A stretch of 64,000 bases of DNA from Bacteriovoracaceae bacterium (GTDB lineage: Bacteria; Bdellovibrionota; Bacteriovoracia; Bacteriovoracales; Bacteriovoracaceae): NCBI GenBank assembly GCA_016786485.1, contig JAEUWD010000034.1, positions 1 to 64,000 of the forward strand. The letters are read 5' to 3'. The notes under the pieces are model-generated. The model was not told where the DNA came from. It saw only the letters and a list, made by a program, of their open reading frames with translations, and did no database searches. A program made the translations under genes and the position numbers. Position 1 is the stretch's first letter, and every line of letters starts with the position of its first letter. Shown piece after piece: positions 15,567 to 24,384 of this stretch.

Positions 15567-16655
15567 ATGGCAGAGGATAGTGACCAAGGCGATAAAACCG
15601 AAGAACCTTCAGCATACAGGCTGGAAGATTTTCGCAGTAAGGGACAAGTTGCTTCATCGAAAGAAGTAAACAGTCTACTTATTTTAGCCGCTACATTATT
15701 CACCCTTGGATTATGTGGTATCTATATTCTTGAGACTATGCAGGAATTTATTTTGTGGCTATTAAAACTAGAGCCGACAAAAATTTATACTGACAAAGCT
15801 TTCGCCGAAGTAATTAGTAAAATGATTATGACTGGGATTAAATGTAGTGGCCCGGTTTTAGCAAGTGCTTTTATCATTGGTTTCTTAACTCAGCTTTCAC
15901 AAATTGGTTTCATCTACGCGCCGGATTTACTAAGTATAAAATTTGAAAGAATTGATCCACTTAGCGGTTTTAAAAGAATTTTCGCGATGAGAGCGATCGT
16001 CGAAGTTATTAAAGGTCTTTTCAAGTTTGCGATCATCATCTCAATTACTTATTTTTCAATGAAATCAAACTTTAAGATTCTTACTGGCTTTTTACATCTT
16101 GAAGTTGGCGAGTCATTGGTTTATGGCCAAAGCGTTGCGATGAAACTGGCTTTTTCTATTTTACTGGGCCTGGTTTTTGTAGCGACGGGAGATTTTGCTT
16201 GGGAAAAGTATTCGTATCGTAAGAAATTAATGATGACGAAACAAGAAGTGAAACAAGAGCATAAAGAAAAAGAAGGTAATCCAGAAATTAAACAAAAAAT
16301 TAAAAATATTCAGCGTGAAATGAGTCGCAAGCGCATGATGGCCAATGTTCCAAAAGCTGATTTTATTGTGACAAATCCAACTCATTTAAGCGTTGCAATT
16401 AAATATGATCCCAAAAATATGCTAGCACCCGAAGTTATCGCGAAAGGGGCGGATCATGTGGCCTTGAAAATTCGTGAGATTGCCAAAACAAATGACATCC
16501 CAATTGTTGAAAATATTCCGTTGGCACGAACCCTTTATAAAACGGTGAAAGTTGGAGAAGGTGTGCCGCGATCATTATATAAGGCCGTGGCAGAAGTTCT
16601 GGCCTTTGTTTATAAGAAAAAGAGAAGAAGAAAAGCTTTAGGAGCAGGTGTATAA
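15567..16655 (+). CDS. flhB: Flagellar export switch protein FlhB
   Basis: FlhB sets substrate specificity of the export gate. The 362 residues include the conserved head (DKTEEPSAYRLEDFRSKGQV), four membrane helices, and the cytoplasmic autocleavage motif NPTH (in VTNPTHLSVAIKYDP) with downstream AKGADHVALKIREIA. The cleavage Asn-Pro is intact, so substrate switching should work normally. It follows fliR by 10 nt. Confidence 0.96.
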   Translation: MAEDSDQGDKTEEPSAYRLEDFRSKGQVASSKEVNSLLILAATLFTLGLCGIYILETMQEFILWLLKLEPTKIYTDKAFAEVISKMIMTGIKCSGPVLASAFIIGFLTQLSQIGFIYAPDLLSIKFERIDPLSGFKRIFAMRAIVEVIKGLFKFAIIISITYFSMKSNFKILTGFLHLEVGESLVYGQSVAMKLAFSILLGLVFVATGDFAWEKYSYRKKLMMTKQEVKQEHKEKEGNPEIKQKIKNIQREMSRKRMMANVPKADFIVTNPTHLSVAIKYDPKNMLAPEVIAKGADHVALKIREIAKTNDIPIVENIPLARTLYKTVKVGEGVPRSLYKAVAEVLAFVYKKKRRRKALGAGV

Positions 16656-16656
16656 G

Positions 16657-18741
16657 ATGGGAAAAGTCGATCAATTATTATCGAAATTCGGTTTTCTGAC
16701 TAAGAGTGCGGACCTCGCGATTGCAGTTGGTATCTTACTCATATTAGCGATGATGATTTTACAAGTACCAGCTTGGGTGCTTGATTTACTACTTACTACG
16801 TCACTAGCATTATCTTTAATTATTTTACTTTTGAGTGTTTACGCTAGCCGTCCTTTAGATTTTTCAACTTTTCCGGCCGTATTATTAATTTCAACTTTAT
16901 TTAGGTTGGCCCTGAACGTCGCTTCAACTAAAAATATTTTATTATTTGGCGCCAGTGATGGGACTGAAGCGGCAGGTGCCATCATCCATGCCTTTGGTAA
17001 TTACGTCGTGGGTGGAAATTACGCTGTCGGTTTAGTCGTTTTCATTATCTTAGTTATTATCAACTTTATCGTTATCACCAAAGGTGCTGGGCGAGTCGCT
17101 GAAGTTTCTGCTCGATTCACCTTAGATGCAATGCCTGGTAAACAAATGGCGATCGATGCCGATTTAAATGCAGGCTTAATTGATGACAAAGAAGCAAAAC
17201 GTCGCCGCGCTGAAATTGCACAAGAAGCAGATTTCTACGGGTCTATGGACGGTGCTAGTAAATTCGTACGCGGTGATGCAATCGCCGGAATCTTAATTAC
17301 TTTTGTTAATATTATTGGTGGGATTATCATCGGAATGGTTCAAAACAATATGGACTTTTCAAAGGCGACAGAAGTCTTCACGCTGTTAACAGTAGGGGAT
17401 GGTTTAGTCACACAAATCCCAGCGCTTATCATCTCGACTGCAGCTGGTATTATCGCGACTCGAAATACTGAGAGCGATTCTTTGGGTTCACAAATCTCCT
17501 CACAATTTTCAGTTCAACCAAGAGCGCTTTATATTGTTGCTGGTGTTCTGGTTTTATTTTCATTCATTCCAAATATTCCCATGATGCCATTTTTTATAAT
17601 TGGTTCGACCATTGGTTTTTGGGCACTTCGAATTGATAAGCGCAACGCGATGGTTGAGGCGGCAAAAAAACAAACACAAATCGAAGAAAAGAAATCAACG
17701 GGCGAAAACTTGGAAGACTTACTTGGTGTCGAACTGGTCGAGTTGGAAGTGGGTTATGGTCTGGTCAATATTGTTGATACGAAACAGAACGGTGACTTGC
17801 TTGAAAGAATTAGCCACATCAGAAAACAATTTGCGATCGATTGGGGGGTTATCGTCCCTTCTATCAGAATTAAAGATAATTTGGAATTAAAGCCAGGTGG
17901 TTATTCATTAAGAATTAAAGGTATTGAAGTAGCCAAAGGCGAATTGATGCCTGATCACTTGTTAGCGATGGATCCTGGTACGGTTATTGAAAAAATTGAT
18001 GGTGTCGAAACAGTTGAGCCAGTTTTTGGATTACCGGCGGTTTGGATTGGTGAAGAATTACGTGACGATGCTCAATACAATGGTTACACCGTGGTTGATT
18101 TATCAACAGTTGTTGCAACTCATATCACTGAAATCTTGAAAAATAATTTACATGAATTATTTGGCCGTCAGGAATTAGTTCGTGTTCTTGAAAACTTCAA
18201 AGAAGATTATCCAAAAGTTGTTTCTGATTTAATCCCTGAAATTTTAAATATGGGTATCGTTTTAAAAGTTCTTCAGAATTTATTGAAAGAGGGTGTTTCT
18301 ATCCGTGATTTAAGAACGATTCTTGAATGTTTAGCTGAGATTGGTGACAAAATTAAGGATCCTGAGCAATTAACCGAGTTTACTAGACAGGGATTATATC
18401 GAACGATTACAGAATCCATTAAGAGCCAAAAAGGTGATATCCCAATCTTTACATTGGACCGTGGAATTGAAGAGTCTATTTCCGAAGCGGTGGTTCCATC
18501 TGAAGGTGGAATGCAGTTGGCGATGGAAACTCAGGTAACTCAAAAAATTCTATCGAGTTTAAATGAAAAGATTGAAGAAGCTACGAATTTAGGAGAGAAA
18601 ATGGTCATACTATGCTCTCCCGTTATTCGCAAGCACTTTAAAAAGCTCACCGAGAAGTTTATTCCCAATTTAATTGTTGTAAGCCATAATGAATTAAGCC
18701 CTGAAGTGAATATACGATCACTTGGAACGGTGAGGTTATAA
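16657..18741 (+). CDS. flhA: Flagellar export gate protein FlhA
   Basis: The large export-gate nonamer subunit, 694 residues from ATG 16657. Eight N-terminal membrane helices, then the FHIPEP signature (RFTLDAMPGKQMAIDAD) in the cytoplasmic loop and a full C-terminal docking domain (from VELEVGYGLVNIVD to the SPEVNIRSLGTVRL end). The GTG 9 nt upstream, inside flhB, is a less likely start because AGGAG/AGGTG lies between it and the ATG. Next gene flhF begins 1 nt after the stop. Confidence 0.96.
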   Translation: MGKVDQLLSKFGFLTKSADLAIAVGILLILAMMILQVPAWVLDLLLTTSLALSLIILLLSVYASRPLDFSTFPAVLLISTLFRLALNVASTKNILLFGASDGTEAAGAIIHAFGNYVVGGNYAVGLVVFIILVIINFIVITKGAGRVAEVSARFTLDAMPGKQMAIDADLNAGLIDDKEAKRRRAEIAQEADFYGSMDGASKFVRGDAIAGILITFVNIIGGIIIGMVQNNMDFSKATEVFTLLTVGDGLVTQIPALIISTAAGIIATRNTESDSLGSQISSQFSVQPRALYIVAGVLVLFSFIPNIPMMPFFIIGSTIGFWALRIDKRNAMVEAAKKQTQIEEKKSTGENLEDLLGVELVELEVGYGLVNIVDTKQNGDLLERISHIRKQFAIDWGVIVPSIRIKDNLELKPGGYSLRIKGIEVAKGELMPDHLLAMDPGTVIEKIDGVETVEPVFGLPAVWIGEELRDDAQYNGYTVVDLSTVVATHITEILKNNLHELFGRQELVRVLENFKEDYPKVVSDLIPEILNMGIVLKVLQNLLKEGVSIRDLRTILECLAEIGDKIKDPEQLTEFTRQGLYRTITESIKSQKGDIPIFTLDRGIEESISEAVVPSEGGMQLAMETQVTQKILSSLNEKIEEATNLGEKMVILCSPVIRKHFKKLTEKFIPNLIVVSHNELSPEVNIRSLGTVRL

Positions 18742-18742
18742 A

Positions 18743-20173
18743 ATGCATGTAAGAAAATTTGAAGGAGATTCATTGGAAGATGTTCTTCAAACAGTTAAGA
18801 AAGAACTTGGTCCCGATGCAATCATTATTAAAACTAAAACCAATAAAGGTCTGGCTGGTGCGCTGAAAAAGAAAAAAATTGAAATTACCGCCGCCATTTC
18901 TGAAACCTCATATCTTAAAAAAGCTAAAGTTGATTCGGTTCTTAATGAAGAGCAAAAAGAACGTTTCTATAAAAATCCTGCAAGTAAAATTAATGCTACC
19001 GTAAGTAACTTTAGCGATAATACACCAGCGGCTCGTGGCTATGGAAACTTAGCTTTAAATCGTTCGGTTAAAATTGCAGAGACTGAGACTAAAAATAAAA
19101 CTTCTGATTTAGATCGATTCTTAGATGAAAAACCAGCTAATGAACAGCCGGTCAGAAGAGCTGCTCCAAGTATGGCCTTAAATGAATTCATCGGTGGCAC
19201 AGAAGCAGCAGAAGAAGTTGAAGTAAGAAGGCCAACTGCTATTCCTGCGCAAGCTCAGGCGACTGCCACTCAGCCGATTTCAAGTTCAATGAATGACTTT
19301 TCTGGGAAGCTAAGAGAAAACGATCGACGAATAAAAGAACTTGAAGATCGATTGATGGAACTCACTCAATCAGTTACTTTTAAAAATAGAAAAGACGATG
19401 AAGAAAAAGGTATTCTTGAATTAGGAAGAACGCTTCGTTCTTTAGATTTCGATGAAGCAGTAATTCATTTATTAAATAAAAATGCACGCGCCAATCTTTC
19501 TCAAAAAGATTTAGCGGTCAGCGATGTGGTTTTCGATCACGCTTTACAGCACTTGCACTCATTGATTAAAACTAAGCCGATTTTATTTGCGGAAGAGACA
19601 CAGTCGACCAACGGTAAAATCGTAGTGCTTATCTCTGAAGGTTCATCAGGTCAAACATCAATGGCATTGAAGTTATCAAATATTTATGAGAATTGCGTGG
19701 TGATTAAATTCTCACATGGCGCGAGCGCAAATAGTCGCTTCGTCGAAAAAATGTTTGATGTGGAAATGAATATGGTAAGTACCATTTCGGAAGCGCTACA
19801 AGCGATCCGCAAAGCTTCAGAAGCTAACAAAAATATTATTGTAGATTACAAAAATATTTCATCGGAAGTTGATGAAACTAAAAAATTCGTTGAGAGCTTA
19901 AGTCGCTCGTATAAAAATTTAGAAGTAGAGTTAGTGTTATCTGCCATACATTCGGAAATATACAATAGAAAAATTATTTCCAAGTATAAACAGCAGTTGG
20001 ATGGCGTTATAATTAATCATCTTGATAAGTGCTTAAGCTTTGGCTCACTTATCAATGTGCACATGCACTCTGGCCAAATCCCAATGGTGTTTTTCGGCAC
20101 TGGTTGTGTGGTTCCAGAAGATATTGAAGCAGCATCAAGTGAGAGGATTTTAGCAAGTTTAGTTGAACTGTAA
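18743..20173 (+). CDS. flhF: FlhF homologue with degenerate GTPase motifs
   Basis: FlhF is an SRP-family GTPase that sets the pole and number of flagella. The basic N-terminal domain (MHVRKFEGDSLEDVLQTVKK) and long linker are typical, and the end still has the family's GTGCVVPEDIEAAS. The G domain is eroded: the P-loop reads EGSSGQTS (299-306), with Gln in place of the nucleotide-binding Lys; the DTYR block is replaced by SHGAS; DTAGR is DYKNI (368-372); TKxDE is NHLDK (425-429). Tight GTP binding and hydrolysis look unlikely. The reading frame is intact and the neighbours are normal, so this is divergence and not a broken gene. Length (476) is on the long side for the family. Confidence 0.88.
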   Translation: MHVRKFEGDSLEDVLQTVKKELGPDAIIIKTKTNKGLAGALKKKKIEITAAISETSYLKKAKVDSVLNEEQKERFYKNPASKINATVSNFSDNTPAARGYGNLALNRSVKIAETETKNKTSDLDRFLDEKPANEQPVRRAAPSMALNEFIGGTEAAEEVEVRRPTAIPAQAQATATQPISSSMNDFSGKLRENDRRIKELEDRLMELTQSVTFKNRKDDEEKGILELGRTLRSLDFDEAVIHLLNKNARANLSQKDLAVSDVVFDHALQHLHSLIKTKPILFAEETQSTNGKIVVLISEGSSGQTSMALKLSNIYENCVVIKFSHGASANSRFVEKMFDVEMNMVSTISEALQAIRKASEANKNIIVDYKNISSEVDETKKFVESLSRSYKNLEVELVLSAIHSEIYNRKIISKYKQQLDGVIINHLDKCLSFGSLINVHMHSGQIPMVFFGTGCVVPEDIEAASSERILASLVEL

Positions 20174-20232: not shown

Positions 20233-21111
20233 ATGAGTCGTGCTAGTAATTGGTTGTATTCGTTTAATTCAGAAGCTTCAGACGTACTACAAAAAAGCAA
20301 AAATGGAAAAGCAAAAACTATCGCGGTCAGTAGCGGTAAAGGTGGCGTTGGCAAAACGTCGATTGCCATTAAATTCGCCAAGGATTTAGCTGCTCGTGGT
20401 AAAAAAGTTTTACTCATTGATTGTGATTTCAATCTTTCAAATACTTCCATTAAATTAAATATTCCTCTTAATAATTATTTTTCAGAAATGCTTACGCAGG
20501 GTAGACCTTTTGAAGATTGTCTGTATCGTGATGGTAATTTTCACTTATTGCCAGCTGCCAATGGGGACCTGGAGCAATTTTATAAAAATTTGAACATGGA
20601 CGAAGTGATCATTGATATCATCAATGCTCACGAAAATTCTTATGATATTATCATTCTCGATTCTCCAGCAGGGATCTCACGTGAAACGCTGACCCTGAAT
20701 GCTTACTGTGACCATCGCTTTATTATTGTTACTCCTGATCGCTCATCAATTACTGACTCATATTCTCTGATGAAAGTTCTATCGAAAAACTTTGGAATAA
20801 AAGAAAATCATATTATCGTAAACTTTTTTAGTAACAAAAAGCAGTATGACAAAGTCGTCAAAACGCTGAGTGAGACGGCCGAAAACTTCCTAGGCTGCCG
20901 AAGTTACTTGATTGGTGGACTTCGTAAATATGATATTTCTGCTGATGCTTTCGATAGGTATTTTTTGCACGTGGCTGATTCTGCCGCCCACAAAGATTTC
21001 GTAAAGCTTAGTGATTCTTATGTCGAAAAATTCCTTGGACGATCTCTGGATGTTGAACCGATCCCTAGTTCAGTTGCCATGAGAGATGTTCATCTAGATG
21101 TACATTATTAA
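20233..21111 (+). CDS. flhG: FlhG/FleN-type MinD-like ATPase
   Basis: MinD-family ATPase that limits flagellar number, normally together with FlhF. The deviant Walker A motif is complete (SSGKGGVGKTS, about residues 33-43), as are VLLIDCDFNLSNTSIKLN and IIILDSPAGIS. The C-terminal end has no obvious amphipathic membrane helix. The short N-terminus before the P-loop shows no DQAxxLR motif, the element by which FlhG activates FlhF in other bacteria; an in-frame TAA at 20215 rules out a longer N-terminus. ATG 20233 follows GGGGACAGGAAG. Confidence 0.92.
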   Translation: MSRASNWLYSFNSEASDVLQKSKNGKAKTIAVSSGKGGVGKTSIAIKFAKDLAARGKKVLLIDCDFNLSNTSIKLNIPLNNYFSEMLTQGRPFEDCLYRDGNFHLLPAANGDLEQFYKNLNMDEVIIDIINAHENSYDIIILDSPAGISRETLTLNAYCDHRFIIVTPDRSSITDSYSLMKVLSKNFGIKENHIIVNFFSNKKQYDKVVKTLSETAENFLGCRSYLIGGLRKYDISADAFDRYFLHVADSAAHKDFVKLSDSYVEKFLGRSLDVEPIPSSVAMRDVHLDVHY

Positions 21112-21126: not shown

Positions 21127-21912
21127 ATGTCGACAATCACCAGTAAATTAAAGAAGCTAAAAGATTACAAAACAGAAATCAATGCTCAGATGAAAGATGA
21201 AATCATCGTAGAGTATGCTCCTTTAATTAAATATATTGCTCAAAAAATTGCGTCGCGTTTACCGGCCAATATTGAGTTGGATGATTTAATTTCTTGCGGT
21301 GTTATTGGTTTAATGGATGCAATTGCCAAGTTCGATCCTACTCGTGATAATAAATTTAAAACCTATGCAGAATTCCGTATCAGAGGTTCAATTCTAGACG
21401 AACTTCGCGCTCAAGACTGGGTTCCTCGTTCAGTTCGTGAAAAAGCTAAACTCGTTGAAAAAGCATATGCCAAACTTGAAGGTGAATTAGGTCGTCCAGC
21501 CACTGACGATGAAATGTGCGCTGAACTTAATATTACTCAAGATGAATTTTTCTCATTACTAAATAAAGCAAAATCCGTTTCATTGCTAAATATCGACGAT
21601 TCAGCGACCTTTAATCGTGGTGATAAAAAACTGCTTATGGGTCTGCTCGAGCACAGAAGATCATCAAATCCTTTTGCCGCCGTTAACTACAAGCGTGCAC
21701 AAGAAATTATTAAAGATGGAATTAAGTCATTGCCAGAGAAGCAGAGATTAGTTCTTTCTCTATATTATTATGAAGATCTAAACTTGAAAGAAATTGGTCA
21801 AGTTCTCGACGTTACAGAGTCACGTGTTTCTCAATTGCACACTCAAGCTATTTTGAAATTGCGTGTGAAGCTGAAGACAAATTTCGAATCAGTAGAAGAT
21901 ATTGCAGTTTAA
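21127..21912 (+). CDS. fliA: Flagellar sigma factor FliA (sigma-28)
   Basis: Group 3 sigma factor for late flagellar genes. Region 2 is clear (DDLISCGVIGLMDAIAKFDP, KTYAEFRIRGSILDELR), then WVPRSVREKA for region 3 and a region-4 helix-turn-helix (LNLKEIGQVLDVTESRVSQL). At 261 residues it is of normal length. Strong AAGGAG site. Its place last in the export operon means sigma-28 is produced with the export apparatus. No flgM anti-sigma gene is present nearby. Confidence 0.95.
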   Translation: MSTITSKLKKLKDYKTEINAQMKDEIIVEYAPLIKYIAQKIASRLPANIELDDLISCGVIGLMDAIAKFDPTRDNKFKTYAEFRIRGSILDELRAQDWVPRSVREKAKLVEKAYAKLEGELGRPATDDEMCAELNITQDEFFSLLNKAKSVSLLNIDDSATFNRGDKKLLMGLLEHRRSSNPFAAVNYKRAQEIIKDGIKSLPEKQRLVLSLYYYEDLNLKEIGQVLDVTESRVSQLHTQAILKLRVKLKTNFESVEDIAV

Positions 21913-22023: not shown

Positions 22024-24384
22024 ATGTTCAAAAAAATCAACTCAAATTTTCCGAAATTTTACCAAGTTTCATTGGCCTTGGTAACAGTGACGGCATCATC
22101 CGCTTTAATATATTTCTGGTTTTCTGGATATTTAGACGGTTCTTTTGCTAGTTCAGTTTATCAAAACGCCCAAGTTGTCGAAAATTTGAAAAATTCAAAA
22201 ATGTTGGATTATGTGGCGGACAGTGTTGCCAAAGGTGAGATTGATCGCGCATTGAAAAATCTAGAATATTTCGAAAGTAATGTTGAACAAATTGATAATT
22301 TCGCAAATACCAATAGCTATGAAGATATGGAAAAAGGTCTTATCAAGTTGAAAGACTCATTGGGAAAAATTCAATCGGTTAACAGTGCCGATGATGCGCT
22401 TCGTGTCTTCCAAGAAAAAATTAGAAGCTTTGAAAACTATGCCAATCTAAATGAGTGGAGAACGCTTTCACGTTTAAGTTCGCGTATTATGGCCAAAATC
22501 ACAGCTCAGTCTTCAATGAGAAATAATATGGCGGAGGTGATCAACAGTGTAAAAACTGATATCACTATTATGAAGAAAGTGACAATGTCTTCTGTACTTC
22601 ATCCAACAACTAAAAATGAAATTGTATCAAGACTTGATTCACTTACTCATGAATTGAATATGCTGAATGGTTATTCGAGCAATAAAAGTTCATTTCAATC
22701 ATTACTAGTAAGCTATCAAAGAAGTTTCGATCGTTGGTTAACGGATGTGAGTCCAGAACTAGCGCTAAAAAAACTTGAAGCCGATAGATTTGGCCATTAT
22801 TTTTTATTTTCACTTATGGCGATTATAGGTCTTTGTCTCAGCTTACTAGCAGTTGGTTCAAGAATGCATCGGAAATTTGCGAGCGAAGAAGTCGAAGCTC
22901 TCGAAAATTCTGTTATTCAATTAATTGAAAAAAGCATCTTGGAACAACAAAATATCAGCAATGAATATTCATTCGAATTCAAAAATAAATTCGACAAGAT
23001 TAAACGTTATATTAAAAAGCGCATGATGTTTGGTTCAATGTTTCAAGACTCATTACCATTTCCATCGCTACTTATGGACAAAAACCTAAAGCTAATTTGG
23101 GCAAATAAATTATTCTGTGAAACATGGTCAATTGATAAAGAAGAAATTAATTCTGAAACTGTTGGTTGGGATACAGTTGCTAAAATCACAAACCTTGGTG
23201 AAGAAGATCCGGTTTATGAAGCTATTAAAAACGGCATCGCAGGTGTTTACCAAATTCAAGTTCGTTTCAGTGAAAATATGCCAAGTGAGCCATTTGAAAT
23301 GTATGTTTCTCCAACAGAATATGCGGGAGAGAAACGTGTTCAAGTTTATTTCTATTCACTGACTTCAGTTCAAGATGTGATTGCTTCTCAAAGTAAATCC
23401 ATTGTTGGGCCTGTGTTACGTACACTTGAAGCGCTGATGAAAGGAAGCTTTGATAGTCAATTTCAAGGTGATATTAAGAGTGATTATGAAGCCGCTCAAA
23501 TTGAAAATCTTTATGAGAAGTTTTTAAAATATAACGACTATGTTGTGCTTCAACGTGAGGGTTTATTATCAGAAATTGACCGTTTAGAAGACACTGTAAC
23601 AGACAATGAAAAGATTATTAATGACGTGGGTGTTTTAAACTCTTCATTAATGCAGAGTCATTTAGAACTTATTAAAGATTTAGGTGTTGTGAGAAGCCGT
23701 ATTATCGAATTATCCGAAGTGGCTGATGGTCATAAAGCGATGAACGTTGAGTTATCTCGCCTGGTTGAAAGTAATCTTGAAAGATACCGCAACTCAATCG
23801 AAAAAAATAAAAACTTGTTCGATTCGTACGACGAAGGCTTGAAGTCTATTCCAACCATCGATAAATTCAAAGACGAACTAAAAATTGTTCGAACTGAATT
23901 GGTAAATAGTAAAAATAAAATTGCTCAAACCATCACGAAGCTTACCCCAAGTACTGATTTTGCTGTGAAGAGCGAACTAGATTATAAAACGACAGCGTTA
24001 ACAGAAAGAATTCAATTGGAATTGGAAAAGTTAACTGACATTGTGGGAATTCTTGAGAAGAAAATGGTTTTCCTTGAAGTTCAATTTTCAAAAACCCAAA
24101 TGGTTTTCAACGAACACAAGAAAACAATTTATGAAAACAAAGTTGAAAATGAAACGGTTACTTTTGAAAGATATAAAGATTATTCAAAAAACTATTCAAG
24201 TAAGTTAAGAGAGCTTGAGCGTCGTACTGATATTTCTGAAAGTGAAGTCGTTAGTCGATTAAAGAGCATTTACGACTTATATCGTTCGAATGCAAAAACA
24301 ATTTATCAAATTAAAGAGATTATCAGCGACAAAAAAGTAGCGGCTGAGCCAACAGGCGAAAGAACTCCTGAACAAGAAGTTTAA
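22024..24384 (+). CDS. Membrane protein with PAS-like and long coiled-coil regions
   Basis: Not a family I recognise. Transmembrane helices lie at about 12-34 and 258-279 and bracket a 220-residue helical periplasmic domain, the layout of a sensor. The cytoplasmic part holds a PAS-like domain (about 339-450: FPSLLMDKNLKLIWANKLFCETW is the usual PAS opening) and then over 300 residues of heptad-rich helix. The conserved hairpin tip of chemoreceptors and any kinase or cyclase domain are absent. It lies 111 nt after fliA in the same direction, with its own GGAAG ribosome site, and is closed by the opposing coaE gene overlapping by 4 nt. A motility-linked sensor or scaffold is inference. Confidence 0.75.
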   Translation: MFKKINSNFPKFYQVSLALVTVTASSALIYFWFSGYLDGSFASSVYQNAQVVENLKNSKMLDYVADSVAKGEIDRALKNLEYFESNVEQIDNFANTNSYEDMEKGLIKLKDSLGKIQSVNSADDALRVFQEKIRSFENYANLNEWRTLSRLSSRIMAKITAQSSMRNNMAEVINSVKTDITIMKKVTMSSVLHPTTKNEIVSRLDSLTHELNMLNGYSSNKSSFQSLLVSYQRSFDRWLTDVSPELALKKLEADRFGHYFLFSLMAIIGLCLSLLAVGSRMHRKFASEEVEALENSVIQLIEKSILEQQNISNEYSFEFKNKFDKIKRYIKKRMMFGSMFQDSLPFPSLLMDKNLKLIWANKLFCETWSIDKEEINSETVGWDTVAKITNLGEEDPVYEAIKNGIAGVYQIQVRFSENMPSEPFEMYVSPTEYAGEKRVQVYFYSLTSVQDVIASQSKSIVGPVLRTLEALMKGSFDSQFQGDIKSDYEAAQIENLYEKFLKYNDYVVLQREGLLSEIDRLEDTVTDNEKIINDVGVLNSSLMQSHLELIKDLGVVRSRIIELSEVADGHKAMNVELSRLVESNLERYRNSIEKNKNLFDSYDEGLKSIPTIDKFKDELKIVRTELVNSKNKIAQTITKLTPSTDFAVKSELDYKTTALTERIQLELEKLTDIVGILEKKMVFLEVQFSKTQMVFNEHKKTIYENKVENETVTFERYKDYSKNYSSKLRELERRTDISESEVVSRLKSIYDLYRSNAKTIYQIKEIISDKKVAAEPTGERTPEQEV

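Follow-up and report, generated by a model that had tools for sequence, protein, structure and literature searches.

In other bacteria FlhF positions the flagellum through a switch that depends on bound GTP, and the locus described here raises the question of what becomes of an FlhF that has lost key residues of its GTPase site. The locus lies in a window (the whole stretch of DNA analysed, 64,000 nucleotides) from a member of the Bacteriovoracia, which are mostly predatory bacteria. The gene order in the window is flhA-flhF-flhG-sigma (Table 1), which confirms the place between flhA and flhG given to flhF in a preliminary description of the sequence, and flhG is found directly 3' of flhF in nearly all loci of the class. 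Directly 3' of flhF-flhG-sigma the window carries a gene (22024-24384) for a 786 amino acid membrane coiled-coil protein without Pfam match, and similar-looking coiled-coil proteins follow the sigma factor in the loci L060 (6048-7970) and L070 (645-2969).

Table 1. Coordinates of the genes and protein segments of the flhF locus; positions are those of the window, residue numbers those of the respective protein.
Feature	Position	Strand	Basis
flhA, upstream of flhF	16648..18741	+	PF00771, 891.8 bits
flhF homologue, candidate pseudo-GTPase FlhF, 476 aa	18743..20173	+	ATG start; ORF call, weak FlhF profile match, orthologues, AF2 NG fold
N-terminal FliG-interaction-domain-like head of B domain (residues 1-62)	18743..18928	+	pN/pS 0.048; modelled strands and helix
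variable linker, predicted disordered (residues 95-180)	19025..19282	+	pLDDT <50 over 97-123 and 129-178; pN/pS 0.438
former P-loop (G1), residues 298-306 SEGSSGQTS, Lys to Gln304	19634..19660	+	Q 90/90 class, K 30/30 outgroup
former G2 / switch I DTxR site, SHGAS (324-328), lost, length variable	19712..19726	+	column 326: Asp 30/30 outgroup, variable in class
former G3 DTAGR, now DYKNI (368-372), sole survivor Asp368	19844..19858	+	D368 89/90 class; Gly371 30/30 outgroup, variable in class
SAIHS (400-404), new class-specific conserved motif	19940..19954	+	class alignment, n=90
former G4 TKxDE, now NHLDK (425-429); Asp428 stays, Lys and Glu gone	20015..20029	+	D428 89/90
retained G5 / closing-loop block GTGCVVPEDI (452-461)	20096..20125	+	G454, P458, D460: 87-89/90 class, 30/30 outgroup
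flhG, MinD-type ATPase	20233..21111	+	Walker A KGGVGKT intact; no DQAxxLR enhancer helix, no C-terminal FW tail
Trp7-Leu8, new invariant motif at FlhG N-terminus	20251..20256	+	42/42 aligned FlhG
sigma factor gene (FliA-type position), downstream of flhG	21127..21912	+	sigma-70 regions 2, 3, 4

The protein matches the NCBIfam FlhF model TIGR03499 with 57.9 bits, below the cut-off of 174.15, and its Pfam SRP54 match (31 bits) covers residues 347-474 only, in the C-terminal part of the G domain. No genome of the class comes close to the FlhF cut-off. In the source assembly, which is 98% complete, PF00448 gave only two strong SRP54-domain matches, taken as FtsY and Ffh; a second, intact FlhF is absent among these matches and hence from the rest of the assembly. 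The open reading frame is a distant FlhF, linked to flhA-flhG.

An AF2 model built with 57 class sequences reaches a pLDDT of 80.8 on average and of 92-97 in most blocks of the G domain; it confidently predicts an NG fold of the SRP type that is closest, among solved structures, to FlhF. In VIA-align the GDP-bound FlhF of S. putrefaciens (8r9r) came top (Z 24.2, rmsd 2.7, 239 aligned), and the GTP-bound FlhF of B. subtilis (2px3) came third with Z 23.6, tied with FtsY. The secondary structure of the P-loop is preserved in the model, with a strand at 293-298 and a helix starting at 304. Residues 1-52 are modelled as three strands (2-8, 27-33 and 46-52) and one helix (11-21), which match the FliG-interaction domain (FID) as described in PMC11236974.

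The residues read by the preliminary description, i.e. EGSSGQTS with Lys replaced by Gln304 at the P-loop, SHGAS, DYKNI and NHLDK, are all correct, and the VPEDI block is retained as it had stated, with G454, P458 and D460 conserved class-wide. Throughout the class the P-loop is without its Lys and its first Gly (Ser in 88 of the 90 class sequences), switch I without its Asp and Arg, G3 without its Gly, and G4 without its Lys and the Glu that follows the Asp; at this last position, column 429, all 30 outgroup sequences have Glu and those of the class Leu, Gln or other residues. The retained residues are the P-loop Gly303 (89/90), Ser/Thr305 (86/90), the G3 Asp368 and the G4 Asp428 (89/90 each). 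The Thr/Ser of G4 is mostly retained too, with Lys changed to His, Asn or Tyr in most sequences. To call the site dismantled was therefore too strong, since G303, T305, D368 and D428 remain. Some of the altered positions are conserved in a new form: the P-loop consensus in the alignment of 90 class sequences is S-[ED]-x-S-x-G-Q-[ST]-S, and at 400-404, where the outgroup mostly has SATTR, the class has SAIHS (S in 87, A in 75, I in 86, H in 78 and S in 70 of 90). No GK[ST] P-loop is present at any other position of the 476 amino acid protein, which rejects a shifted P-loop and disposes of the true GKT motif elsewhere for which the preliminary description had allowed. The protein keeps the head of the B domain, the N domain and the G fold, and has lost the residues that contact the gamma-phosphate and serve in catalysis.

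Orthologues were found in 119 of the 129 Bacteriovoracia genomes searched, with intact flhF open reading frames in nearly all class genomes. In the alignment of 90 class sequences and 30 FlhF of other lineages in the phylum, the column of the P-loop Lys holds Gln in 90/90 class and Lys in 30/30 outgroup sequences, so that the loss is clade-wide, a point which the preliminary description had put up for checking. Forty further outgroup FlhF from additional families all carry GK[ST], which brings the outgroup to 70/70 genes, the comparison being one within a single phylum (class and outgroup families). A scan of named genomes gave GQ in 80/80 loci from Bacteriovorax, Halobacteriovorax and uncultured Bacteriovoracia and GK[ST] in none, although these loci overlap the anonymous genomes and the two counts are not independent. 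Chance and sequencing error are excluded, as are close relatives with intact motifs, since the same replacement residue is found class-wide, in independent assemblies and in cultured isolates. In a maximum-likelihood tree of FlhF, in which class and outgroup separate and whose root is unreliable because of long branches, the class sequences group in one clade (SH-aLRT 98), whose stem measures 1.71 changes per column; one clade with a long stem requires only a single loss. We conclude that the GTPase site was lost a single time, on the branch leading to the Bacteriovoracia, after which the change became fixed and constrained.

The constraint is visible in pN/pS values obtained from 109 close pairs (52 sequences), of which only the ordering of regions is to be trusted, given nearly saturated synonymous sites and pairs that are not independent of each other. 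The best-conserved part of the protein is the N-terminal head (FID, 0.048); the G5 block has 0.054, the region around G4 0.040, the former P-loop region 0.104, the G domain 0.127 and the linker 0.438. Purifying selection acts on the G domain, and these values together with the class-wide conservation reject a lone, decaying pseudogene.

The partner FlhG was rebuilt in parallel, as judged by its sequence, which the preliminary description overlooked. The class FlhG shares with FlhG/MinD-type ATPases such as FleN and YlxH an intact Walker A motif KGGVGKT, matches to the MinD-type profile and an alpha/beta core, confidently predicted in the model. It differs from them in lacking the DQAxxLR helix and the FW-type tail, and in carrying the N-terminal Trp-Leu motif. 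The enhancer helix, absent from the N-termini of class FlhG, elsewhere supplies the co-catalytic Gln for GTP hydrolysis by FlhF (PMC12826062); FlhG has thus retained its ATPase site and lost the helix that elsewhere triggers hydrolysis. An aromatic FW-type C-terminal tail, a putative membrane-targeting sequence, is present in 45/52 outgroup FlhG by a loose pattern and in the class in 3/82 by the loose and 0/82 by a strict pattern; the C-terminal tail is disordered in the model. Many class FlhG end in -E[QH][ED]V[HQ]..., the codons of which could double as the ribosome-binding site (GAGGT) of the downstream sigma gene. The Trp-Leu motif occurs in 81/84 class flhG loci, and WLx[SG] in 0/52 outgroup FlhG. 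The loci L062 and L069 lack it altogether, and their paired FlhF are among the most diverged. The model places the Trp-Leu segment outside the confident core, as a helix of low confidence (block pLDDT 50). A membrane helix at this position is not supported, since its hydrophobic moment of 0.34 is near the background of 0.31.

A clean co-loss of the FlhG helix with the GTPase site of FlhF was rejected. The helix is present in families f24 and f26-f29 and is also missing in Bdellovibrio-type families which keep GK[ST], so that its loss is not specific to the class and not by itself the cause of the loss of the site; these families also contradict the textbook FlhF-FlhG switch. Bdellovibrio-type loci with an intact FlhF P-loop and an FlhG without DQAxxLR are L105, L106, L115, L116, L118, L120, L122 and L203-L234. 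From this distribution the FlhG helix may have been lost first and the GTPase site of FlhF later.

Two cultured strains with the Gln form have been described as flagellated. Bacteriovorax DB6_IX and BSW11_IV, whose FlhF (L132 and L189) carry it, are reported to be motile with one single polar sheathed flagellum (PMC4511183). Co-occurrence of FlhF with FlhA is weakened as proof of flagellar function by gene adjacency, since draft genomes lose both genes together; six genomes without both FlhF and FlhA still show a strong FliG match. The core claim of the preliminary description, a functional FlhF which is no longer a conventional GTPase, is well supported by the class-wide and single origin of the change, purifying selection, the retained fold and FliG-binding domain, and the strains with a single polar flagellum.

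The FlhF of V. alginolyticus, P. aeruginosa, S. putrefaciens and B. subtilis have the same gene order, FID-type head, NG fold and VPEDI block, and differ from the protein described here by having the P-loop Lys, DTxR, the G3 Gly and the G4 Lys and Glu, and a DQAxxLR helix in FlhG. The same positions have been altered in laboratory mutants, i.e. K305A, T306A, D439A, E440K and others in V. alginolyticus and hydrolysis mutants in P. aeruginosa, some of which still place flagella (PMC6092412, PMC12713375), whereas in Bacteriovoracia the changes arose naturally and in combination, are ancient, and have become fixed in about 40 genera, with a parallel change in FlhG. In V. alginolyticus flagellation is lowered by K305A, G299A, G304A, D377A and K437A and abolished by T306A, D439A, T436M and E440K (PMC6092412). 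Mapped by motif position (K305 to column 304, T306 to column 305, D439 to column 428), the Vibrio-essential T306 and D439 are retained in the class, the tolerated K305 and K437 are lost, and E440 is lost too. As K305A merely reduces flagella, loss of the Lys alone is no proof of loss of the nucleotide, and as the survivors include residues that Vibrio can least spare, they are compatible with a structural need or with residual ligand binding.

We consider it fairly probable that the gene encodes an FlhF-derived pseudo-GTPase which acts as a tether between FliG and the pole and is regulated by the ATPase cycle of FlhG. FlhF would then work independently of a nucleotide cycle of its own, and may be the polar marker that the preliminary description proposed. 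By extrapolation from other species, its N-terminal head would bind FliG and its NG domain a putative polar receptor, and FliG-bound head and pole-bound NG domain together would seed the MS/C-ring at a single pole. The ATP cycle of FlhG, as the only nucleotide switch, would supply on/off control, with the Trp-Leu motif of FlhG perhaps docking on the pseudo-GTPase. While the steps at the level of the genes can be read from the sequences, the tether mechanism is suggested by analogy: S. putrefaciens FlhF has an FID-FliG contact and an NG-HubP contact (PMC11236974), and the NG-HubP binding in Shewanella is GTP-independent according to work cited in PMC12713375. The FimV/HubP C-terminal domain gave no match in the assembly, a negative that is uninformative since the domain model matched only one control genome, weakly, and none of the controls above the cut-off. 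Flagellum placement in the class probably runs without the usual GTP switch. A GTPase fold is used as a scaffold by the eukaryotic pseudo-GTPases Rnd, RhoH and CENP-M, which belong to an unrelated GTPase class, not to SRP/SIMIBI, and are comparable only in the way they work.

Against the tether, the conservation of both Asp (G3 and G4) and of the Gly and Ser/Thr of the P-loop would seem more than a pure scaffold needs, and since these Asp and Ser/Thr residues remain, residual binding of guanine nucleotides is possible. An FlhF dead for hydrolysis and competent for binding would hold GDP, GTP or an alarmone in its pocket via Asp428, Gln304-Thr305 and Asp368, and nucleotide binding would control dimerisation. 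The near-invariance of the two Asp (89/90 each) and of the P-loop Ser/Thr (86/90) agrees with such a protein, as do the crystal structures of the SRP GTPases Ffh and FtsY with (p)ppGpp and the localisation of FlhF in P. aeruginosa and V. alginolyticus, which is reported to need binding and not hydrolysis (PMC12713375). We nevertheless regard it as rather unlikely, in view of the class-wide loss of the P-loop Lys, the first Gly, the whole DTxR, the G3 Gly, the G4 Lys and the Glu that follows, at which E440K abolishes the flagella of Vibrio (PMC6092412).

A sharper form of the tether reading, and compatible with it, is a mixed SIMIBI complex of nucleotide-free FlhF and ATP-bound FlhG in which Trp-Leu replaces the enhancer helix. 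Trp7 and Leu8 are invariant in 42/42 FlhG and absent in 52 outgroup FlhG, their predicted position in a low-confidence helix outside the core is as expected of a partner-binding motif, and the FlhG without them (L062, L069) pair with strongly diverged FlhF; but FliM/FliN, a transcription factor or the membrane might be the target of the motif instead, and we hold this complex to be doubtful. That the gene is decaying or mis-sequenced and its protein dispensable, as the motifs lost relative to textbook FlhF and the profile scores below the family cut-off might suggest, has a negligible likelihood and is already refuted by the identical replacement residue across the class, pN/pS of 0.04-0.13 in the former motifs, and intact open reading frames in nearly all genomes, from independent assemblies and cultured isolates.

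The preliminary description also overlooked an aflagellate genus that keeps a pseudo-FlhF. Three genomes of genus g27 (G065, G067 and G068, 94-99% complete) carry at the loci L058, L059 and L060 a shortened open frame of 351-384 amino acids with GQ[ST], and have no FlhA or FliG match; a fourth g27 genome is without pseudo-FlhF. In L060, the only one of these loci read gene by gene, pseudo-flhF has a coiled-coil membrane protein and a sigma factor as neighbours, and flhG is missing. A 173 amino acid open reading frame (L060, 3426-3947) overlaps the start of pseudo-flhF and has no Pfam match above cut-off. If real, a role of FlhF outliving the flagellum, and thus a non-flagellar role, is possible. 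A wider proposal, for which we see somewhat less than an even chance, is that the class turned the two-nucleotide FlhF-FlhG switch into a single-ATPase system, with FlhF as a nucleotide-free scaffold and an FlhG that lost helix and membrane tail and gained a Trp-Leu docking motif, the scaffold being general enough to outlast the flagellum, FliG included, in one genus.

The accessible part of the open-licence literature yielded no report of a GTPase-dead FlhF lineage or of an SRP-family pseudo-GTPase, and a 2025 review of the FlhF-FlhG switch, in the part available, describes FlhF as a GTPase. As the protein studied here scores far below the FlhF cut-off, automatic annotation may miss such proteins. 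The need of FlhF for GTP in flagellum placement is disputed between species, and the Bacteriovoracia offer a natural experiment, a one-time change retained across 40-odd genera, cultured strains that bear a single polar flagellum among them. Should FlhF act without GTP in these bacteria, polar placement would be separable from the GTP cycle, and the surfaces of FlhF that are still conserved would point to the true tethering interfaces.
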